Of a stretch of 46,982 bases of DNA, positions 5,642 through 18,448 are shown one piece after another. The notes beneath the pieces are model-generated. The model had not been told where the DNA came from. It did no database searches and saw only the letters and a list, made by a program, of their open reading frames with translations. Positions within the stretch are counted from its first letter, which is position 1. Each line of letters begins with the position of its first letter. Source of the stretch: a virus; IMG/VR virus record IMGVR_UViG_3300030746_000023, positions 1 through 46,982 of that record; one strand, 5' to 3'. The position numbers and the translations under genes were made by a program.

Positions 5642-6478
5642 CTAGAAGTTCACTTTTTCGAATACCTTCGGTTCTCTTTTTACTGTCGTGAAAAACTTAG
5701 GGCCATTAGAATAAAGAAAGGTCCGAAGACCCAAACCACCATTGCTATCAGCCCAACAACGCCTCTTATGATCACAGTAGGAGCAATTTGTTCCAAGAAC
5801 TCGGTTACCACTTGCTCCATCTTCTTCATCGGGGTAGCACCTTTCAGGTTCGACATCTGACTCAACAGCAGACTTTAAATAGTCAATACGTTCTTCAACA
5901 TTAACTGTGGCAGCAAGTTCGTCCTTAGTGAATGGAAGATAAGCTAGGTGTCCGCTGACTTTGTCCATTGCAAGAAATGCACCGTCTGTGTTTCTTGCTT
6001 TACTATAACCGGCGATCTGTTCAATATAACCGAAGGCGTCGTCTTCAGCCAAAGATCCATTAGCGAACTTCTTAAACGAATAGGGGCTAGCACTCTTGAC
6101 ATCAACAGTTACTCCGTCGATGTCGGCGTCGATATGTCCTTTAATTCCTTGGATAGCCACTTCATCTTGGCGAGCCGTAACATTGTGGCCCGACACGCTG
6201 GCGAGGAATAGTAGGACAGACTCTGTAATGTGGCCAACGAGGAACTTGAGGAGAGTGTGGCCTTTGAGTGGTTCTTCTGGTTCATATCTCTTTTGGTACC
6301 AAAGTTGACGTGCGCCTTTTCCGAGGTTGGACATACGAAGGGTGAATGGTCGTTTACCTTCTTCTAGACTGTCCCGGATAATGGTAGCAAGTTCAGACCC
6401 AAATTCAGTTGCTTCGGCGTCGGTAACTTGCTTACCATTTTCCAGGACAGAATAGATGTCATCTACTAAAGTTGAGAT
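5642..6478 (-). CDS. PD-(D/E)XK (Cas4/RecB-like) nuclease, with probable ATC start
   Basis: About 278 residues from the proposed start. The catalytic core reads H-ITESVLLFL, GIKGHIDADIDG and VDVKSAS, the Asp...Asp-x-Lys arrangement of RecB/Cas4-like nucleases. It ends with a CSYC...C cluster resembling the Cas4 iron-sulphur ligands. The first ATG (6334) starts in the middle of a conserved segment (LRMSNLG). Upstream the frame continues with STLVDDIYSVLENGK, typical of related phage nucleases as I recall them, to an ATC at 6478-6476 that overlaps the SSB stop (TAATC) and has GAGGA nine bases upstream. No ATG/GTG/TTG exists back to the stop at 6508-6506; a CTG at 6499 and one farther in are weaker alternatives. 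Likely recombination nuclease acting with SSB. Confidence 0.82.
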   Translation of the reverse strand: MSTLVDDIYSVLENGKQVTDAEATEFGSELATIIRDSLEEGKRPFTLRMSNLGKGARQLWYQKRYEPEEPLKGHTLLKFLVGHITESVLLFLASVSGHNVTARQDEVAIQGIKGHIDADIDGVTVDVKSASPYSFKKFANGSLAEDDAFGYIEQIAGYSKARNTDGAFLAMDKVSGHLAYLPFTKDELAATVNVEERIDYLKSAVESDVEPERCYPDEEDGASGNRVLGTNCSYCDHKRRCWADSNGGLGLRTFLYSNGPKFFTTVKREPKVFEKVNF

Positions 6479-7244: not shown

Positions 7245-9074
7245 TCAATGGCACTCTGCCCAGTTGAGTCCAACTTTGTAGTTACCCGTGAGCGGGACTT
7301 TAAATCCAATAGCAAGCCCTGCACTTGTGATTGCGTCAACACAGGTCTTTCCAACTTCCTCAGAATCCTCGGTCTTTGCATCAAGTTGTCCTTCATCATG
7401 AATGTTACCCACATAGAAGCCATCAAGCCCGCGCCGTTTAATCTCATTACGGGCTATGATAGCCGCCTTCTTCATAACTATTGCCCCCGCACTTTGGAGC
7501 TTATAATTAAGGCTAGCGCTTTTGGAGTGGCACCTGACGAATCCCCCATCAATAGTTCGGAGAAGTCCGCCAGTTCCTCGAAACTCATCTTGGATATCTG
7601 CGACCAATCTGGCCAGTCCGGGCGTACCTTTTTCAAGGACTCCACGAGCCCATTTACCGTATGGTCCAGCTTCACCTTTACGAAGTTCAGGTTTAAGCGT
7701 GACTCCGAGTTTACCATCTCCAGCTCCATAGAGATAAGCGTAGAATCCATTCTTGACCGTGAGATCACGCATTTCATCTGGGAGTTCGAGGTTTCTAGTG
7801 TTAAGGAGGTGGGGGTCTCCTGTAGTGAAGAGAAGGGTGGCCTCAGCATTGTTAAGATACTCAGCAAACATACGCATTTCAAGGCCGCTGGCATCATAGC
7901 CAACTTCTCGTCGGTTGGGTCTAGCTTGCCAGAGCCTTCGACATTCAATTCCATACTTTACCTTCTGCTTTGCCTTAGGGATATTGGCTGTGTTTGGACC
8001 AAAATGTGTCATCCGACGGGTTGTTGCACCACAAGTCAGAACACTACCGTGCATACAACTGTCTTCATAGTTAACATTATTCAACCAAGTGTCAATCATA
8101 GATGACCGACCCTGAAGTACAAGCCACTCAGCAATAGCAGTTGCTTCAGGTCTTCTCGAACTCTCAGCGAACGCTAGAAGGCTTTCTTCGTCAACCTTGG
8201 GGAAACCCTTCTCAGTGAAATCTTGGGGTTCCCAACCTAGTCCAAGTAGGCGTTCTACTCTCTGCTTAGGCGATCCAATATTGAAGGCTTGCCAATCGAG
8301 AGTGCTGTAGGTTCCGTCTCCGTTTTCACGGAGTTCAGGATATGTTGCAAGGTGCCTGAGGCGGCTCGCATATTCTCCTCCGTCCGCTTTAACTCTTCGA
8401 TTGTATGTTCCGACAACTTCAAGCTTGGGTGGGAATAGCTCCAGTATTGGACCTTCCAGAGCTGCTTGCTCAGCTCGGAGTTGACCGACAAGAGATTGTG
8501 CACCTGGGATGTCAAATGCCCAACCAGCTCGCTTTTGCTCATCTACTACCTCTCTGATTTCATGTTCAATTTCACAAGACAGCTCACTAAAACCAAGCCG
8601 CAACATACGCTGCCACAGAGCACGAGCCACTTTCTTTCCGAGCCGAACGTCTTGTTGGCAATACCTGTCCATTTCGGGGCTGTAGCCACTGAAGTCGTCG
8701 AACTGCCCTTTCGGGTCTCCAAGACGTTCGCCCCAAGCTTCCAGGCTGTGGCCGCCGCTGAGAGCAGGATCGTACAGGTATGAAAGAACAAGAGTGTCGA
8801 CGATATTACCAGTGTGAATGGGAGCGCCAACCAATCTCGCCGTGTGAGGTCCGTCGTAACTGATCGCGTTATGACCGACAAAATATACCCCCTGTCCCCG
8901 TAGTTCATCGAAAAATCTCCGTATCGCATCATGGCCAACGAAACTATGAACTTCATCAGAGTCCATTCGACTGGCACACATCATCCAAAGTTTAGATGGG
9001 TACAGGCTGTCTGCTTCGCAGTCTATGTACCAATATTTGTGATAGTCCTCAACGCGGGGAAGGTATTTTACCAT
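7245..9074 (-). CDS. T7-like family A DNA polymerase with 3'-5' exonuclease
   Basis: 609 residues. Exonuclease motifs: YIDCEAD (Asp18, Glu20), GHNAISYD (Asn69, Asp74) and YCQQD (Tyr138, Asp142), so proofreading should be active. Polymerase motif A is GYDASGLEMR (Asp394), motif B includes Lys441 and Tyr445 before LYGAG, and motif C is NIHDEG (His559-Asp560-Glu561). Shorter than T7 gp5 (704 aa). The start overlaps the primase-helicase stop by 7 nt. Acts with the gp4-like helicase and gp2.5-like SSB encoded on either side, forming a T7-type replisome. Confidence 0.96.
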   Translation of the reverse strand: MVKYLPRVEDYHKYWYIDCEADSLYPSKLWMMCASRMDSDEVHSFVGHDAIRRFFDELRGQGVYFVGHNAISYDGPHTARLVGAPIHTGNIVDTLVLSYLYDPALSGGHSLEAWGERLGDPKGQFDDFSGYSPEMDRYCQQDVRLGKKVARALWQRMLRLGFSELSCEIEHEIREVVDEQKRAGWAFDIPGAQSLVGQLRAEQAALEGPILELFPPKLEVVGTYNRRVKADGGEYASRLRHLATYPELRENGDGTYSTLDWQAFNIGSPKQRVERLLGLGWEPQDFTEKGFPKVDEESLLAFAESSRRPEATAIAEWLVLQGRSSMIDTWLNNVNYEDSCMHGSVLTCGATTRRMTHFGPNTANIPKAKQKVKYGIECRRLWQARPNRREVGYDASGLEMRMFAEYLNNAEATLLFTTGDPHLLNTRNLELPDEMRDLTVKNGFYAYLYGAGDGKLGVTLKPELRKGEAGPYGKWARGVLEKGTPGLARLVADIQDEFRGTGGLLRTIDGGFVRCHSKSASLNYKLQSAGAIVMKKAAIIARNEIKRRGLDGFYVGNIHDEGQLDAKTEDSEEVGKTCVDAITSAGLAIGFKVPLTGNYKVGLNWAECH

Positions 9075-10675
9075 GAATGCTCAACTATTGTAGTTCCTCC
9101 GTTGTTGTACTGTATAATCTGTTCTTTGTCTAGTTCTGTGAGTCGCCCGGTGAATTCGTTATAATGAAGGTAAGCGCCAGGACCAGTCCTGCCACAAAAC
9201 CTGTTCTTTTCTACAATAAGTTTCACCACATTACGCCTCCACGGGTCTTCGGAGAGACGTTCTCTATGAAGTTTGATTACAATATTGGCCAGTTGTTCCA
9301 CACCAGCAGTGCCCCTAATTTGACCCTGCCTATTCTGGTGTATTACAGCAAGTACCGCGATATTTAATTCCATTGTCAAAGTTTTGAGCTTAGTGCTAAT
9401 CTCATCTAGTTGCTTACGCTCATCCCCTGATTGATCAGACACGACAATACTAAGATGGTCCAAGATAATATACTTGCAACCAAGATTGTGCATATGGCGG
9501 ACTTTATTGAGTATCTCCTGAATGGAGTTACTCCCGAAATGATCATAAATAACCAGCTTGTCAGTATTAACACTCCGATCAAAATACTCACGCATCTCCT
9601 CCTGTTTAATTGTGTCCCTTACATCTGGAAGATGGAGAGGTAGATTAGCCTCAAGTGACATCAAACCTAGTGCTGTGTCGCCGTTAGTCTCTTCCAGGTG
9701 AAGGAGTCCGATACCCGCATCGGGGCTAACCTTACGGATATTGAACTCTATTTCCTTGAGTACTGATGTCTTTCCAACACCTGTTTCCGCAGTGAAGACC
9801 ACGAACTCCGAAAGCCTAATGCCGTATGTCTGAGTATTAAGCAAGTCCCAGGGATACGGTACTGTCTCATACGCCTTCCGTTCGCTGATCTCACCCCACA
9901 TGTCGCGGCCAAGTTTGAGGCCGCTTGGAGTAAACGTCGGGCTGGACCACCATTCACGGTTGAACTGCTCCCGCTTACCAGCTTTAAGATAGTCGTTCGG
10001 GTCTTTGCCGTCTGCAAGAGTAAGAATCTTAACCTTGCCGATGGGGAACATACCAGCCACAGCAAGAGCCGCCTCTTGGCCGGGGTAACGGATTTGTCCC
10101 GTTCTCTCATTTACTTTCGGATCGTCCCTGTCGAAGCAGACAACGACGTTTGCAAAGCTGTTAAGGTATTCAAAGTTGTCTGCAACATCTCGACTAGCTC
10201 CGTCCGCTCCATATCGAACAGACACGACCGGCCACCTGCTTCCCATGAGCTCAAATGCCGCGCAAGCGTCATATTCGCCTTCAACAATTGTAATGAACTT
10301 CGCACTACCTCCAGGAAAAAGCTGGCTTCCGAAGAGTCCGGAGTGTTTGATGTCACCTTCAACATTAAATTCTTTATCAGGGTGTCTGACCTTGTTTGCA
10401 AGGTGTTTTCCATCATTGAAATATGGGAAGTATGTCGTGTCACCATTACGCCAAATGCCATACTTCTCAGCACTGGCGCGGGATATCTTTCGATCAGTTA
10501 AATCTTTGTAGTCTTTACCGAGTTCTGTGAGGATATTACTGTCCTCCTTCTTATTGTTATTCGGAAATGTCGTGTTACCGCAACTGAAGCAATGAGTGTG
10601 TCCATCATCATACAAAGAATTGGCATCACTACTATCACATTCGTTACAGGCAATGTGCCTTAGAAACTGACTTAT
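9068..10675 (-). CDS. T7 gp4-like primase-helicase, with probable ATA start
   Basis: About 535 residues. Zinc-binding domain: Cys10/Cys13 (ACNEC) and Cys29/Cys32 (CFSC), with the same 16-residue offset as T7 gp4. Toprim primase: TIVEGEYDA and CFDRDD. RecA-like helicase: Walker A AETGVGKT, Walker B YIILDHLS, and VIHQNR. The nearest standard start, TTG at 10615, would delete the first Cys pair. The frame upstream (SQFLRHIACNECDSSDAN) matches the T7 N-terminus and holds no ATG, GTG, TTG or CTG back to a stop at 10690. ATA at 10675-10673, ten bases after GAGG, is the likely initiator; ATT at 10654-10652, within the conserved HIAC segment, is a less likely alternative. The product is certain; the start is inferred. 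Confidence 0.94.
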   Translation of the reverse strand: MSQFLRHIACNECDSSDANSLYDDGHTHCFSCGNTTFPNNNKKEDSNILTELGKDYKDLTDRKISRASAEKYGIWRNGDTTYFPYFNDGKHLANKVRHPDKEFNVEGDIKHSGLFGSQLFPGGSAKFITIVEGEYDACAAFELMGSRWPVVSVRYGADGASRDVADNFEYLNSFANVVVCFDRDDPKVNERTGQIRYPGQEAALAVAGMFPIGKVKILTLADGKDPNDYLKAGKREQFNREWWSSPTFTPSGLKLGRDMWGEISERKAYETVPYPWDLLNTQTYGIRLSEFVVFTAETGVGKTSVLKEIEFNIRKVSPDAGIGLLHLEETNGDTALGLMSLEANLPLHLPDVRDTIKQEEMREYFDRSVNTDKLVIYDHFGSNSIQEILNKVRHMHNLGCKYIILDHLSIVVSDQSGDERKQLDEISTKLKTLTMELNIAVLAVIHQNRQGQIRGTAGVEQLANIVIKLHRERLSEDPWRRNVVKLIVEKNRFCGRTGPGAYLHYNEFTGRLTELDKEQIIQYNNGGTTIVEHSW

Positions 10676-12526: not shown

Positions 12527-13408
12527 CTACCAACCGAGATTGAGGTTGCGGATACCACTTCCAATTCCGGCCACGGAAGCAGGGGCGGCAACCCACAATC
12601 CAGGTCCAGCTTGTTGTTCTGCGGGCTTATGATCATAGGCAATTGCCTTCGGTTTAATACCGGTTCGTAAACTTTCTGCAAGACCTCTGAGGGCGACGCC
12701 GTACTGCTGAACAGTTGTCCCTTCGATGCCCGGTGCAGTATTAGCTTCCAGGACATAAAAATCTCCCTTTTTGTCCTCGATGATATCCAGACCACCAAAA
12801 TCCAAGCCCAGCGCCTTGATGGTCTGTATTGCCAAGGCGTCGCGTTTAGCACTAGGAATTATGTTCTTGCGCTGAAAGATAAAACCATTTTGCCAGGAAC
12901 GAACTTTCCAGCTAACAACTTCACGCTTAGGGTCACGGACCTTTTGTTGGGTGTCAATAATATCATATGGCGTTGCATGAACGCGAAATTCCTTTTCCTT
13001 GAAAATGTATTGGGTGTAGAGGGGAGCTTCTATGAGCTCATTACCTGGCTCTACTATTACAATACCATCGCCTTCATGGCCTGTCAAGGTCTTCCGGGCC
13101 ACAACCGTCTTGCCAGAAGCCAGCCACTCCTTGGCCACAGCCTTATTAGCTGTCCAAGGAACTGTGGGTATATTCTTTCCCGCCAGCATCTGAAATGTCA
13201 TTAGCTTATTAACAGCCTTAGCAACCGCACCCGGTTGATTTAGTGGCCGAAATTTAGTAACTGCAATAGCAGCGCGACATTTACCCCAGTTAACAATCAC
13301 ATCGTCCGGCTTAACAACCTTATTAAGATGAAGACGACGAAAACCCTCCTCTTTAGCGAGCAAGGCGGCTCCGTCGGACGGTCGGCCACTGTAAATCCAA
13401 ATGGTCAT
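12527..13408 (-). CDS. RimK-like ATP-grasp ligase
   Basis: 293 residues. ATP-grasp landmarks: VARKTLTGHEGDGI (nucleotide-binding strand and loop), LYTQYIFKEKEFRVH, and the metal-binding block GLDFGGLDII...FYVLEANTAPGIEGTT. Such enzymes activate a carboxylate as acyl phosphate and join it to an amine, as in RimK or D-Ala-D-Ala ligase. The C-terminal ~40 residues are an Ala/Gly/Pro-rich extension. ATGA overlap with the amidoligase upstream. Predicted to perform one ligation step of the amide product made by this operon. Confidence 0.88.
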   Translation of the reverse strand: MTIWIYSGRPSDGAALLAKEEGFRRLHLNKVVKPDDVIVNWGKCRAAIAVTKFRPLNQPGAVAKAVNKLMTFQMLAGKNIPTVPWTANKAVAKEWLASGKTVVARKTLTGHEGDGIVIVEPGNELIEAPLYTQYIFKEKEFRVHATPYDIIDTQQKVRDPKREVVSWKVRSWQNGFIFQRKNIIPSAKRDALAIQTIKALGLDFGGLDIIEDKKGDFYVLEANTAPGIEGTTVQQYGVALRGLAESLRTGIKPKAIAYDHKPAEQQAGPGLWVAAPASVAGIGSGIRNLNLGW

Positions 13409-14274
13409 TCGGTCAAAGCCCCTTCATTCCACGCAGAACAGAACGCCAAATCTTGAGCGATCCTCATGCCGTCTCGCAACATCTCTTCAAATCCAGCAAC
13501 CTTAAGATACTTGATAGCATATGGCCCAAGAGAATTCTTCAGGAATTCAGTCGAGTCCATCATGCTGAATTGCTGGATGATTGCAGTAGGATTTTGAAAT
13601 GTCCTAGCCCTTTCCTTGATCTGCTGGAGGGTACCAATCCAATGCATAAGACGACCCTCATGCAATGTGCATTCCAAGGACCGATACTCAATACTGCCAA
13701 ACTTCAACAGACTGGCGAAATTAATTGAACTATAGCGATTATTCTGTTGAATACCGAAGAAGTCTGAACCCTGGGAAATGGAGTTTACAAGTTCAACAAT
13801 TTGTCCCATCGCATCCTTGGCGCGGAAACAGAAATTATTACCAACTCTGTGTTCTCCGTTCTGAGACACTAGAAGTTCGTCAAGTATCACAGACAACACC
13901 ATCGAATTGTAGATGGTTCTGAATGATTCTTGAGAATAATTAACGTGAACATGGATTGAAGTCCGGTACGAGTCGAACACCTCAACCCCTGGACCGGTAA
14001 GGTAACCAAACAGAAGTTGGATAGCTTTCTCAGTATTTTTCAAATTATATGGTGAACGACTGACGTACTCAACAGCCTGAGATCCTGGTACGATTTTCCG
14101 AAGACTGCCATCATTATGTTGAGCCCACAAAATCTTAACCCGCTCTTCAGGGCTCATAATATTCTTGCCTTCGAGCTCAACTTCAATACCGAAAACGTCT
14201 GTCACACTAGCCGCATTCGCAATAGGAATATGACGAGTTAAGGTGTCGTCCAGTTTCATTCTCTTTGTAAGCAT
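13405..14274 (-). CDS. Amidoligase_2-type (glutamine-synthetase-like) amidoligase
   Basis: 289 residues. Characteristic blocks: FGIEVELEG (Glu31, Glu33 metal ligands), HNDGSLR, EYVSRSPY, RTSIHVHVN (His108, His110), NNFCFRA, NRYSSINF and FGSIEYRS. These match the Amidoligase_2 family of COOH-NH2 ligases described by Iyer, Aravind and colleagues. It would form an amide or peptide bond using ATP. Its substrates are unknown. Begins with a TAATG overlap with the upstream gene; ends in an ATGA overlap with the ATP-grasp gene. Confidence 0.88.
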   Translation of the reverse strand: MLTKRMKLDDTLTRHIPIANAASVTDVFGIEVELEGKNIMSPEERVKILWAQHNDGSLRKIVPGSQAVEYVSRSPYNLKNTEKAIQLLFGYLTGPGVEVFDSYRTSIHVHVNYSQESFRTIYNSMVLSVILDELLVSQNGEHRVGNNFCFRAKDAMGQIVELVNSISQGSDFFGIQQNNRYSSINFASLLKFGSIEYRSLECTLHEGRLMHWIGTLQQIKERARTFQNPTAIIQQFSMMDSTEFLKNSLGPYAIKYLKVAGFEEMLRDGMRIAQDLAFCSAWNEGALTE

Positions 14275-14903
14275 TATGCGAGAGCCTCCTGCAATGCTTC
14301 ATTGAGGTGTTTGTACTCATTCAAAATCTTGTACTCACCAAGATTACCATTAAGACTTACGCCAACCTTGGTACCACGATATTCAAGAATAAAATCCTGG
14401 TGGATGTAATCATACGACAATGCGAAATCCTTATGAAAAGCAATAGTCTTAGCTTCTTTGTCTTTCAAGACCTTTTCGACAACAGGAATTTCAGGATAAA
14501 CATTCTCTAGCATATTTACATACGGACGTGAAAAATTGAAATTCTCTTCTGGCATCATAACATTTTCTGAAGATGAAAAGCCGAGTTGGGAACGAATCAA
14601 ACCCTGCCGATATTGCTTGATTGGTTTTCTATACCACCAAAGACAGTGATTATTAGTATTGGCATAACCAATATTGTACTTCTTATATGTGAACGCTTTG
14701 TCTTCGAGATTTATATTTTTATTGCGCATATTGAAAGCACAGACGACTAGACGAAACTTATCTGGAATCTGTTCACTGTTATTAGGATCTATCTGATGAC
14801 TAACTTGCTTGACGAAAACAGCTTTATTCTCATAATAACAGATAGTTTGACTGAACTTGGAACTAACGTCTTCTAGGTTGTCGAACTGTATTTCCTTAGG
14901 CAT
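14274..14903 (-). CDS. Hypothetical protein between the two amidoligases (209 aa)
   Basis: Coupled by TAATG junctions on both sides to the two amidoligase genes, so almost certainly part of the same pathway. The sequence is rich in Asn, Lys, Tyr and Phe (SQTICYYENKAVFVKQ, FRLVVCAFNMRNKN, WWYRKPIKQYRQG). It is beta-rich in the first half, and ends with VGVSLNGNLGEYKILNEYKHLNEALQEA. No recognised motif or signal peptide. A substrate-binding or acceptor protein is a possibility only. Confidence 0.65.
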   Translation of the reverse strand: MPKEIQFDNLEDVSSKFSQTICYYENKAVFVKQVSHQIDPNNSEQIPDKFRLVVCAFNMRNKNINLEDKAFTYKKYNIGYANTNNHCLWWYRKPIKQYRQGLIRSQLGFSSSENVMMPEENFNFSRPYVNMLENVYPEIPVVEKVLKDKEAKTIAFHKDFALSYDYIHQDFILEYRGTKVGVSLNGNLGEYKILNEYKHLNEALQEALA

Positions 14904-15745
14904 TAAGCCGCCTTAAGTAGTGTTAGTGGATCCAAGTGCAAGTCACACTCGGGATAGTGTTCAGGCCAATCAACATCATTGGTGTTGATCACAGTCTGTG
15001 CGATGTCACCATAGTTGTCCTCGGCCCAGAGCCCGCTAAAGCCGTCGGCCATAGCGACCTGAGTAGTGTTATAGACCCAACGCATCAATGGGTCTGAATC
15101 CAACCATCTATTTGAGAGAACGCGATACTCCAACCCGTAGGATTTCGGACGAAACGCACCCGCTTTCCCGTATAGTGAACGACGAACCGGGTCTTTATCC
15201 CAAAAAAGTGAATACATCCCAAGATAGTAGTCCAACTGACGTGCAAAACGACAACAAAGCATGAACCAATCTTTATCCTCAATGTCTTTGTCCTCTGTCC
15301 AACCAATGTGAATGTGCCCGCTAGCGGTCCTGAAAGGCTCCCCAGCGGGATCGGGGGCCGGATTGGTAGTCATGGTCCAGCCACTATAGTCAGGGTTACA
15401 GCCGAGCTCCTGGGCATGACTAGGGACTTGAAACTTGAAGTAGTCTGGCTCAAACCGAGCAACAGGTTCAGCCACAACATTATAGCCGGGGACCATATTG
15501 ATCATGGTGTTCATAACGGATTGAATATTGTGAACAAACTCATCACAGGTTTTAGCAGGATCAATGTTAAACTCAAGTGCGGTTCCGTCAATTTGGACCG
15601 CCCCAAATGGAACTTTGTGAGGTTCCCACTTAGTTCCGGGAATTCTTGGTCCATGTTCCAGGTCGTCAGCAGACACAAAAGCACCCGTATTAGGGTTACG
15701 CATAAAGAGTTCTGGGTCGCAACCGACCAATACTGTTGATTTCAA
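14903..15745 (-). CDS. phiEco32-type COOH-NH2 ligase (glutamine-synthetase-like amidoligase)
   Basis: 280 residues. Recognisable blocks: VGCDPELF (Asp10, Glu12), GTKWEPHKV, GAVQIDGTALEFN, GCNPDYSGW, FRTASGHIHIGW (Arg139, His144, His146), DPVRRSLYGKAG-FRPKSYGLEYRVLSN. This is the ligase family named after phage phiEco32. TTG start with AAGGA eight bases upstream. With the Amidoligase_2 protein it gives the operon two different GS-like ligases. Expected to couple a carboxylate to an amine or ammonia, the ammonia possibly from the neighbouring amidotransferase. Confidence 0.92.
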   Translation of the reverse strand: MKSTVLVGCDPELFMRNPNTGAFVSADDLEHGPRIPGTKWEPHKVPFGAVQIDGTALEFNIDPAKTCDEFVHNIQSVMNTMINMVPGYNVVAEPVARFEPDYFKFQVPSHAQELGCNPDYSGWTMTTNPAPDPAGEPFRTASGHIHIGWTEDKDIEDKDWFMLCCRFARQLDYYLGMYSLFWDKDPVRRSLYGKAGAFRPKSYGLEYRVLSNRWLDSDPLMRWVYNTTQVAMADGFSGLWAEDNYGDIAQTVINTNDVDWPEHYPECDLHLDPLTLLKAA

Positions 15746-15757
15746 CTCTTGTTTCCT

Positions 15758-16831
15758 TCACATCACATGTCGGAGGGTTTCATAGCAATCAACATCGCCA
15801 TAACAAACTTCACACATGAATGGAGTATTCTTGGCCCCATTCCAGTTACCCATTATCTGAATAAAGTCACCCCATTCTTGACTGTTGTCATTACAGAACG
15901 CACAGCCTTCGGCAACCATGTGCTCAAACTGCTGCTTGTTGATGGTGTGGCCGTAGATGTCTTTGTATGGGGGGCGAAATCGCTTGGTATCGAATTTTTG
16001 ATTAAACGATAGAACATTGCTATCACTCTTCTTATAACCAGCAAACGTCTTCACCGTCGTCGTAGTTGTAGCCCCACCTGTAAAAGGGACTGTGGCATAA
16101 ACACATGACTTCCCTTCAACTTTAGACTGCTCGGGACTGTCAAATTTCTTGGTAACAACCGTGGGGACTTTCCACTTATAATGGGTGTCCTTGGTTATCG
16201 TGAAGAACTCGTCGCCTTCCGTTTTCTTGCGACGACGACCTAGAACGTACTTAAGCATCTCAGGTTCAGACGCCCAAATAAGCGTGCAACGATCTGCAGA
16301 ATAGCAATAGTGAAGTGGTCGCTTGTCATTACGCAGGAAGTTTAGGGTTCCGTCTCGCTTGTCAAACCACGTAAGAGCCCAAGCGCCAGTCACACGCTTC
16401 ATGGTTTCAACAACACCAACTTCATTTATTGTCGAAAAAATGGCCTGACTGTCTGTGTCATAGAGATTCGCATCATGAAGATTTTTAATAGTAAATTTGT
16501 CAAGCGTACCATTATGAGCACCCATAACATGTTCAAAAGCGAATGGATGAGCATTCTCTTCAGTGTGAGCCCCAAGAGTGGCATATCTGTTATGCCCTAT
16601 GAGAACTTTAACAGGATTATTGATGTCCATAGCGTCTTCGAACGCCTTGGAGTGAAACAAGTTGAAAGGGTGTCCGGGCGCTCTTGCTAGAGTGAACTCG
16701 TTCGTGGCTCTGTGAACAAATCCAGCACCAGTTGAGTGTGCACCTCTAACACTGTCAACTAGTAGTAGTTCATTAAAAACGTCTTTCCAACTTCCATAAA
16801 TGTCTCCCGCGACTCCGACTAGCCCGCAAAT
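15758..16831 (-). CDS. Class II glutamine amidotransferase with ATT start codon
   Basis: 357 residues from ATT 16831-16829. Class II (Ntn) amidotransferases need Cys as residue 2. Here ATT is followed at once by TGC GGG CTA GTC GGA GTC GCG GGA (CGLVGVAG), the exact family N-terminus. AGGAG lies eight bases before the ATT. The frame upstream has a stop at 16867-16865 region and no ATG, GTG or TTG. The TTG at 16660 would remove the nucleophile and the RGAHSTG block. Further motifs: GHNRYATLGAHT (Arg82), GAHNGT (Asn107-Gly108), DTDSQAIF. It releases ammonia from glutamine, probably for the adjacent ligases. Overlaps the C26 gene by 13 nt. Confidence 0.93.
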   Translation of the reverse strand: MCGLVGVAGDIYGSWKDVFNELLLVDSVRGAHSTGAGFVHRATNEFTLARAPGHPFNLFHSKAFEDAMDINNPVKVLIGHNRYATLGAHTEENAHPFAFEHVMGAHNGTLDKFTIKNLHDANLYDTDSQAIFSTINEVGVVETMKRVTGAWALTWFDKRDGTLNFLRNDKRPLHYCYSADRCTLIWASEPEMLKYVLGRRRKKTEGDEFFTITKDTHYKWKVPTVVTKKFDSPEQSKVEGKSCVYATVPFTGGATTTTTVKTFAGYKKSDSNVLSFNQKFDTKRFRPPYKDIYGHTINKQQFEHMVAEGCAFCNDNSQEWGDFIQIMGNWNGAKNTPFMCEVCYGDVDCYETLRHVM

Positions 16832-17487
16832 TGCAAACTCTCCTGCATGAATTCTGACATTAGTTCAAAACAATAATCAGCAAAACGAGAACCGGGAACA
16901 TATTCTGGATGACCCTGAATGCAGAGGGTCCGGGTTTGCGGATACCAAACGATCTCAGTGTCCTTGTGGTCGTCTGGGTAGAAAAGACTATGCCCAGCTT
17001 CCCAATGATCAGGATTCGCAAGCTTTCTGGTTGATTCGTCAGCCGTTGCAATGACAACACCAGTCTTGTAATTGGGTCGCATCATCTGGTGGTGTGTGCT
17101 GGTGGCTCTGATCTTTTCACCAGTTCGGGTGTCAACGATCATATGGTCGCGAGTGTGACGATCAACATCTTGCCAGAGGGTGCCACCATTAAGGCAATTG
17201 AGAAGTTGAGCTCCACGACAGATACCAAGTTTGAAAGTATTCGGAAAACGATTAAAGATGGCAATCTCTTCTTCATCACGACGAGACGGTTCGAACGGAA
17301 CACCACGATAAGCCGGTCGTTCGTGGTAGATTTTGGTACCAATATCGGCACCGCCGTTAAAGACAATCAAAGTAGCAGACTCGGGATCTTTGATAGGACG
17401 CATACCAATTCCACGGAAAAGATGGCTGGAACTGTCCAAACCACCATATTCGTTAAGGCTAGTAAACGGCATGTCTTTAAAGTTCAT
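16819..17487 (-). CDS. Class I glutamine amidotransferase-like (peptidase C26 type)
   Basis: 222 residues from ATG 17487 (11-nt overlap with the preceding gene; ATG 17472 is an alternative). Motifs: VFNGGADIGTKIY, LGICRGAQLLN (nucleophile Cys90), TSTHHQMM, and QGHPEY with the His and Glu of the triad. This is the gamma-glutamyl hydrolase-like branch (PuuD/C26) that cleaves gamma-glutamyl amides. In the operon it could remove a glutamyl group, recycle the product or supply ammonia. Its end contains the Shine-Dalgarno and ATT start of the class II enzyme. Confidence 0.9.
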   Translation of the reverse strand: MNFKDMPFTSLNEYGGLDSSSHLFRGIGMRPIKDPESATLIVFNGGADIGTKIYHERPAYRGVPFEPSRRDEEEIAIFNRFPNTFKLGICRGAQLLNCLNGGTLWQDVDRHTRDHMIVDTRTGEKIRATSTHHQMMRPNYKTGVVIATADESTRKLANPDHWEAGHSLFYPDDHKDTEIVWYPQTRTLCIQGHPEYVPGSRFADYCFELMSEFMQESLQFAG

Positions 17488-18448
17488 CAAAGGCGTCGTC
17501 GTCGTCAAGGTCGTCGAAATCAAAATCGTGTTCCTCTATGTGTGGTTGTGGTTGTGGTTGTGGTTGTGGTTGTGGTTGTGGTTGTGGTTGTGGTTGTGGT
17601 TGTGGTTGTGGTTGTGGTAGATCATCCCAAATATGCAAGGGAGGTTGAACAAATAGTGGAGGCATTGGAACAAACTTTTTAATCTTTGGTTCAGCTATTG
17701 GCTTGATAATGGGTAGACCAAACAACTCCGAGATCTTTTCGTCGTCCATAGTCTTCATACCCCGAATAGTATTATAATCGGTACTACCCCAAATTTTGTC
17801 ACACGGACGACAATTTTTAGGATTTACCTTAAAAGATTCTGACATTGAAGTCATATCACCTTTTATGATCCGACCCCAATCGGACGACGGAGCGAACCAA
17901 TAGTGACCATGTACCGGGAAAAATCTGTTGTCGCCATTAAATGGCTCACCACGAGTAGAATAAGACAGCAGAAAGGCTAGAACAGTGTCGAACCCAGCTT
18001 GTGTCAACAACTTCCATTGTTTAAGAAACTTTGAATGTTCTATTGGAACTCGGGTGGCAATACAGAAGTTGTAAAGAACATTGCTTGGCCATTTGTCTAG
18101 ATCAGTAATATGAAGATAATAAGTCGCTCTCGATTTCTTAAGACTGACAAGATCACTAAAAGCTTTGAAGGGACCATTTATCAACATTCGAATATAGTCT
18201 ATAGAAACCTCATTAGACTTTGGAACAGCAGTAACCATCTCTTCAAAACCAGGTTTGTGCATTTGCATACTAGCGTGACATATACGCATGTATTCCTTGA
18301 TAAGAACACCTTGAGAATTCCAAATGAACCAAGAAGATGGACTAGCATGATTCAAGCTTTTATACGTGTCAAACAAAGAGGGTAGGTTCTCTTCTATAAC
18401 ACTCTTACTATCAACTAGGATTTCTTCGGGGATTTTCTTATTCACCAA
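17477..18448 (-). CDS. Unknown protein with Pro-Gln repeat and acidic tail (323 aa)
   Basis: First gene after the promoter at 18565-18592. About 240 residues of unrecognised globular sequence (SPSSWFIWNSQGVLIKEYMRI, FFPVHGHYWFAPSSDWGRI, NCRPCDKIWG) are followed by a linker, about 13 Pro-Gln dipeptides and an acidic end (DFDFDDLDDDDAFDEL). The repeat is probably a flexible extended spacer presenting the acidic tail. Start is TTG or the next codon GTG; AAGGA lies upstream inside a short inverted repeat. Being in the amidoligase operon it could be an acceptor or scaffold for the product; that is inference. Confidence 0.7.
   Translation of the reverse strand: MVNKKIPEEILVDSKSVIEENLPSLFDTYKSLNHASPSSWFIWNSQGVLIKEYMRICHASMQMHKPGFEEMVTAVPKSNEVSIDYIRMLINGPFKAFSDLVSLKKSRATYYLHITDLDKWPSNVLYNFCIATRVPIEHSKFLKQWKLLTQAGFDTVLAFLLSYSTRGEPFNGDNRFFPVHGHYWFAPSSDWGRIIKGDMTSMSESFKVNPKNCRPCDKIWGSTDYNTIRGMKTMDDEKISELFGLPIIKPIAEPKIKKFVPMPPLFVQPPLHIWDDLPQPQPQPQPQPQPQPQPQPQPQPQPHIEEHDFDFDDLDDDDAFDEL
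17541..17617 (-). repeat. Hexanucleotide tandem repeat coding Pro-Gln
   Basis: About 13 perfect copies of a 6-base unit (GTTGTG on the plus strand, coding CAACCA on the minus strand). In frame, so slippage would lengthen or shorten the Pro-Gln linker by two residues without frameshift. Confidence 0.95.

Follow-up and report, generated by a model that had tools for sequence, protein, structure and literature searches.

The window, that is, the whole 46,982-nucleotide stretch of viral DNA analysed here, carries a predicted class II (Ntn) glutamine amidotransferase gene of the phiEco32-type cassette, whose AUU initiation codon is probably genuine, deliberately weak and sensitive to IF3, and for which we infer a regulatory role. 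The AUU lies directly before the codon of the catalytic Cys2. AUU and AUC (AUY) starts recur at this position across the family, are specific to the amidotransferase within its cassette, are compensated by stronger Shine-Dalgarno (SD) sequences, are associated with hairpins next to the SD, and precede N-termini that are under selection. This independent recurrence in many phages, often behind a hairpin, points to a start signal that is weak by design and built for the purpose, whereas control by IF3, coupling to the upstream C26 gene and the idea that low expression is what was selected are interpretations that would account for it.

The amidotransferase gene and its start site

On the minus strand, the frame reads ATT-TGC-GGG-CTA-GTC-GGA from position 16831 and continues for 357 codons to a stop at 15758, with a translation opening ICGLVGVAGD... 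The features of the locus are as follows.

15758..16831, minus strand: coding sequence of a predicted class II (Ntn) glutamine amidotransferase, 357 aa long and initiated at ATT (translation, Pfam, phrog, PDB profile)
16829..16831, minus strand: ATT initiation codon adjoining Cys2 (TGC) (sequence; the same in L002, L003 and L004; homologue survey)
16840..16844, minus strand: Shine-Dalgarno AGGAG with an 8-nt spacer to ATT (sequence)
16819..16831, minus strand: end of the C26 gene (TTT GCG GGC TAG), overlapping the start region by 13 nt (sequence)
15803..15904, minus strand: CxxC...CxxC near the amidotransferase C-terminus, residues 310-343 (invariant in two alignments)

The product matches Pfam GATase_6, GATase_7 and GATase_4 (GATase_6 E=3.8e-18) as well as phrog_4736 and phrog_18128, and GlmS and PurF are among the matches of the family profile against the PDB. 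The C-terminal CxxC...CxxC is probably a zinc-binding module.

The original prediction, made from the letters alone, held that the catalytic Cys directly follows an ATT codon with AGGAG eight bases upstream, that this start overlaps the C26 gene and that the next usable start is TTG 16660. All of this agrees with what was found: the AGGAG lies at 16844-16840, the C26 frame ends at 16819 and shares 13 nt, and TTG 16660, the earliest canonical start, falls 57 codons into the frame. The stretch from the in-frame stop just above 16864 to the Cys codon, TNVRIHAGEFAICGLVG, contains no ATG, GTG or TTG. Two more contigs of this phage, recorded in IMG/VR from different metagenomes, show an identical ATT context, and sequencing error as the source of the ATT was ruled out by independent contigs and cultured genomes. 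The gene thus combines an AUY codon with a strong, well-spaced SD, as infC does. Its upstream region has no hairpin adjoining the SD by the definition used below, and the search against Rfam for an RNA family at the gene start returned none in the window and, in four relative loci, nothing but a tRNA.

Recurrence of AUU and AUC starts

Loci were collected from viral and genome collections by a profile search with the start residue masked, yielding 126 non-redundant core homologues. Each gene starts at the codon immediately preceding the Cys, so that the alignment proposed as a check on the start reveals no extra residues. Codon 1 is ATG in 77/126, ATT in 22/126, TTG in 13/126, ATC in 10/126 and GTG in 4/126, and no other codon occurs there in any of the 126. 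Since the masked-start search found only these five codons at position 1, the presence of ATT is more than chance, and AUU/AUC starts account for about a quarter of the family members. The existence of relatives with ATG at the position of 16831, listed beforehand as a finding that could refute the AUU start, speaks in favour of the start position instead.

The nearest ATT relative (L004/L011) is 46-50% identical, has ATT at the same base and a C26 overlap that is also 13 nt long. Together with the start positions of the homologues and the constraint on the N-terminus described below, this strongly supports translation from AUU with Cys as the second residue. ATT starts were also found in the cultured coliphages phiEco32, SU7, Bas87 and Bas88 and in Klebsiella phage Asterion, and ATC starts in the cultured Pseudomonas phages O4 and IME180. 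On a tree of 135 members, 36 of them AUY, about 30 changes between AUY and non-AUY were counted, against a mean of 32 for shuffled labels; there is no clustering, which indicates fast turnover of the trait, even if all three phiEco32-like rows keep the AUY start. Well-supported branches provide 15 independent start-codon contrasts.

Cys occupies residue 2 in 135/135 rows of the tree set, the 36 AUY members included, and Cys2, Arg29 and Gly30 are present in 36/36 AUY genes; R82, H95, N107, G108 and D127 are conserved in the family. In pairs of AUY genes, dN is far below dS over codons 2-56, indicating purifying selection. Given this low ratio and the retained catalytic residues, the N-terminus is therefore translated.

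Cassette context and gene specificity

The neighbours of the amidotransferase include a COOH-NH2 ligase, an amidoligase, an ATP-grasp ligase and a C26 gene, which places it in a phiEco32-type amide-modification cassette; the order is the same in Pseudomonas phages O4 and PA11.

16819..17523, minus strand: Peptidase C26 / class I GATase-like gene, 5' of the amidotransferase (ORF listed from TTG 17523; Pfam, phrog)
14903..15745, minus strand: COOH-NH2 ligase (phiEco32-like), TTG start (Pfam, phrog)
14274..14903, minus strand: phrog_11055 cassette protein (phrog)
13405..14274, minus strand: Amidoligase_2 (Pfam, phrog)
12527..13408, minus strand: RimK-like ATP-grasp ligase (Pfam, phrog)

A (PQ)n-coding repeat run lies at 17540-17620 on the minus strand, close to where the gene preceding C26 ends, and is followed by an acidic tail.

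Specificity was assessed by searching every family for canonical starts ahead of its first conserved block. A canonical start before this block was absent in 25/126 amidotransferases and in none of the scorable members of the COOH-NH2 ligase, ATP-grasp, phrog_11055, amidoligase and C26 families, which rules out non-canonical starts throughout the cassette. In the same test, the primase-helicase showed AUA, AUC and AUU starts sporadically, preceded by strong SDs.

Elsewhere in the window phage, three further genes on the minus strand have apparent non-canonical starts. A class II ribonucleotide reductase (phrog_367, 8-1897) seems to be initiated at ATT 1897, preceded by AGGAG, with a 7-nt overlap with the upstream gene end and no canonical start near its N-terminus. 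A Cas4-domain exonuclease (phrog_1990, 5645-6478) has an apparent ATC 6478 start which overlaps the upstream stop (TAATC), with GAGGA on its 5' side, and a DNA primase/helicase (9071-10675) apparently starts at ATA 10675 within an ATAA stop-start overlap; its relatives in L125, L129, L139, L146 and L168 have ATC, ATA or ATT behind strong SDs.

Shine-Dalgarno sequences, spacers and hairpins

GGAGG precedes the start in 13/32 AUY and 2/77 AUG genes, and the SD duplex energies of the AUY genes are stronger (p=7e-5). Hairpins were scored when perfect, with a stem of at least 5 bp, and ending 0-3 nt 5' of the SD. Such a hairpin adjoins the SD in 16/36 AUY genes compared with 5/82 AUG genes (Fisher 2e-6), while about 2 and about 3, respectively, were expected from shuffles. 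The stems vary by lineage, being AACCTC-GTT-GAGGTT in O4, AAAGCC-TGT-GGCTTT in Asterion and AAGGG-TTTA-CCCTT in phiEco32, and they fall out of register in the MAFFT alignment, for which reason the shuffle test was used in place of covariation counts. A tree-corrected test, with few informative pairs, leans the same way (about 5 vs 0.1, median p 0.06).

A separate scan for the DNA pattern GGAGG-N6-9-ATN-TGYGG over 2.9 million viral contigs yielded 15 unique AUY and 16 unique AUG amidotransferases, a set which partly overlaps the first survey and whose added members are more divergent, still matching phrog_4736. Hairpins were present in 12/15 of the AUY and 0/16 of the AUG genes (p=3e-6), the spacer was 8 nt in 14/15 AUY genes and mostly 7 in AUG genes, and none of the amidotransferases retrieved in this way starts with AUA. 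When the loci were scanned for hairpin-GGAGG-8-AUY at the long frames of other genes, it was not found as a recurring feature, whereas at the amidotransferase the arrangement is repeated.

The phages O4 and PA11 form a natural pair with near-identical enzymes, in which PA11 uses TTG behind GGAGG and O4 uses ATC. O4 (L103, 7768-8001) has roughly 200 nt more than PA11, inserted after the PA11-type GGAGG; this extra DNA contains a Cys-rich frame of 63 codons as well as a new amidotransferase start of the form hairpin-GGAGG-8-ATC.

Proposed mechanism and alternative explanations

Established knowledge leads one to expect that fMet is used for initiation at AUU and that a Met preceding Cys is removed. 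At the amidotransferase gene, a strong, well-spaced SD would position the ribosome on the AUU, where the initiator tRNA would place fMet; deformylation, followed by methionine aminopeptidase, would then free the nucleophilic Cys. Being disfavoured by IF3, AUU and AUC would make a weak start with an output set by IF3 activity, and such starts may have been selected repeatedly in the amidotransferase family and not in its cassette neighbours. The weak codon would be offset by the strength of the SD and, in many relatives, also by a hairpin adjoining GGAGG with an 8-nt spacer; at a distance of 0-2 nt from the SD, the hairpin may stack on the SD:anti-SD helix. In the window phage, ribosomes terminating on C26 could take the place of the hairpin through the 13-nt overlap. 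SD strength, spacer and hairpin would thereby tune amidotransferase output.

IF3 represses non-canonical starts, infC being autoregulated in this manner, and non-canonical start codons make genes IF3-responsive, e.g. infC and sigR (PMC5472188). No phage-encoded IF3 was found in the eight phage records searched. Likewise, a search for a dedicated initiator tRNA for AUY found none, the window and G003 being devoid of tRNA genes and the other records holding only scattered Arg, Leu, Met and Ile tRNAs; control would therefore be exerted through host IF3 or other factors. Two findings weigh against a role of IF3. AUA, which is also discriminated against by IF3, is absent from the family starts, and UUG/GUG are over-represented too (17/126), a pattern consistent with selection simply for weak starts in which IF3 plays no part.

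In an extended form of the proposal, hairpin-GGAGG-8-AUU/AUC would be a dedicated module which has arisen or moved often and works as a regulated switch, either IF3-dependent or protein-bound, in which stacking on the SD:anti-SD helix makes an otherwise rejected codon acceptable; this is put forward tentatively, with somewhat less than even confidence.

Selection might instead have acted on weakness only, keeping the amidotransferase dose low relative to its partners, with AUU, AUC, UUG and GUG interchangeable, the IF3 response a by-product and the hairpin a matter of mRNA stabilisation or structure avoidance. UUG and GUG are indeed rarer in the cassette neighbours than in the family, and ATC is exchanged for TTG between the near-identical genes of O4 and PA11. 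However, the hairpin and the GGAGG-8 spacing track AUY and not UUG/GUG, so AUY looks like a distinct design, and a strong SD together with a hairpin speaks against mere weakening; we regard this explanation as possible but rather doubtful. The same modest credence is given to translational coupling, by which ribosomes leaving the overlapping C26 gene would reinitiate at the AUU and a good start codon would be unneeded. The 13-nt overlap in the window and L011 suits it, and the other non-canonical starts of the window phage (ATT 1897, ATC 6478, ATA 10675) are also at gene junctions; because all four sit there, coupling is possible in this phage, as the original prediction had suggested. As a general explanation it fails, since across the family upstream overlap is rarer for AUY than for AUG starts: AUY genes with a hairpin overlap in 0/16 cases, with a median gap of 35 nt, against a median gap of 1 nt for AUG.

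Two readings which place the N-terminus elsewhere are very improbable. A frameshift fusion with C26, or a longer proprotein cut before the Cys, the route taken by certain PurF and glutamate synthase enzymes, has a precedent in the autoprocessed propeptides known from some Ntn amidotransferases. Against it, the frame has no canonical start upstream and at most 11 residues open before the ATT, no slippery heptamer is obvious by eye at the overlap, and the ATG relatives begin exactly with Met-Cys. In most AUY relatives the upstream gene ends short of the amidotransferase start, without overlap, which excludes the frameshift fusion as a family explanation and disposes of the other finding named in advance as able to overturn the AUU start. 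Initiation at TTG 16660, giving a truncated product without the nucleophile, is what the later starts chosen by annotators in O4, IME180, Asterion and SU7 would imply, and it deserves equally little credence: it conflicts with the constraint on codons 2-56, with the invariance of Cys2, Arg29 and Gly30, and with the strong SD positioned for AUY.

Consequences for annotation

In public records (GenBank NC_031274, MF788075, PV891806 and NC_070980) the annotated start is too late by 111 nt in O4, 42 nt in IME180, 51 nt in Asterion and 30 nt in SU7, and the catalytic Cys is lost from these amidotransferase CDSs; the records of phiEco32, Bas87 and Bas88 retain the ATT start. Standard gene calling thus often drops the catalytic residue, and some public protein records are fragments without the nucleophile.

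To our knowledge, well-characterised AUU/AUC starts are very few, infC being the classic case, and a search of the literature, limited to open papers, found no report of recurrent AUU/AUC amidotransferase starts. Here such starts are found in roughly one in four members of a whole phage gene family, including phages whose hosts are tractable in the laboratory (the E. coli BASEL phages, P. aeruginosa O4), and its close natural pairs differing in start codon make the reason for an IF3-discriminated start directly testable.

Comparison with known systems

Among the phages, the closest likeness is with phiEco32 gp83 and the other amidotransferases of Gordonclarkvirinae and Zobellviridae, which belong to the same family and cassette and have ATT or ATC at the Cys. 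The hairpin-class relatives are arranged as hairpin-GG(A/T)GG-8 nt-AUY, while the window gene has AGGAG-8 nt-ATT and the C26 overlap. With GlmS and PurF, which match by profile, the phage enzymes share a catalytic Cys right after the initiator Met; they differ in carrying the C-terminal CxxC...CxxC, and searches with the phage amidotransferases gave no match to a GlmS isomerase or PurF PRTase domain.

The resemblance to Streptomyces sigR lies in its being a gene other than infC, starting with GTC, which is repressed by IF3 and misannotated in genomes (PMC5472188). It differs in its codon and in being a single gene of a bacterial stress circuit. We know of no hairpin module at sigR. The E. coli gene for IF3, infC, starts with AUU, the same IF3-discriminated codon as the amidotransferase (PMC5472188). 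As read from the E. coli genome, its start is GGAGG-AATAAGGT-ATT, with the 8-nt spacing of the AUY module. No hairpin is visible by eye next to the infC SD, unlike in the hairpin-class amidotransferases, and the product of infC is IF3 itself, which closes an autoregulatory loop, whereas the searched phages have no IF3 of their own.
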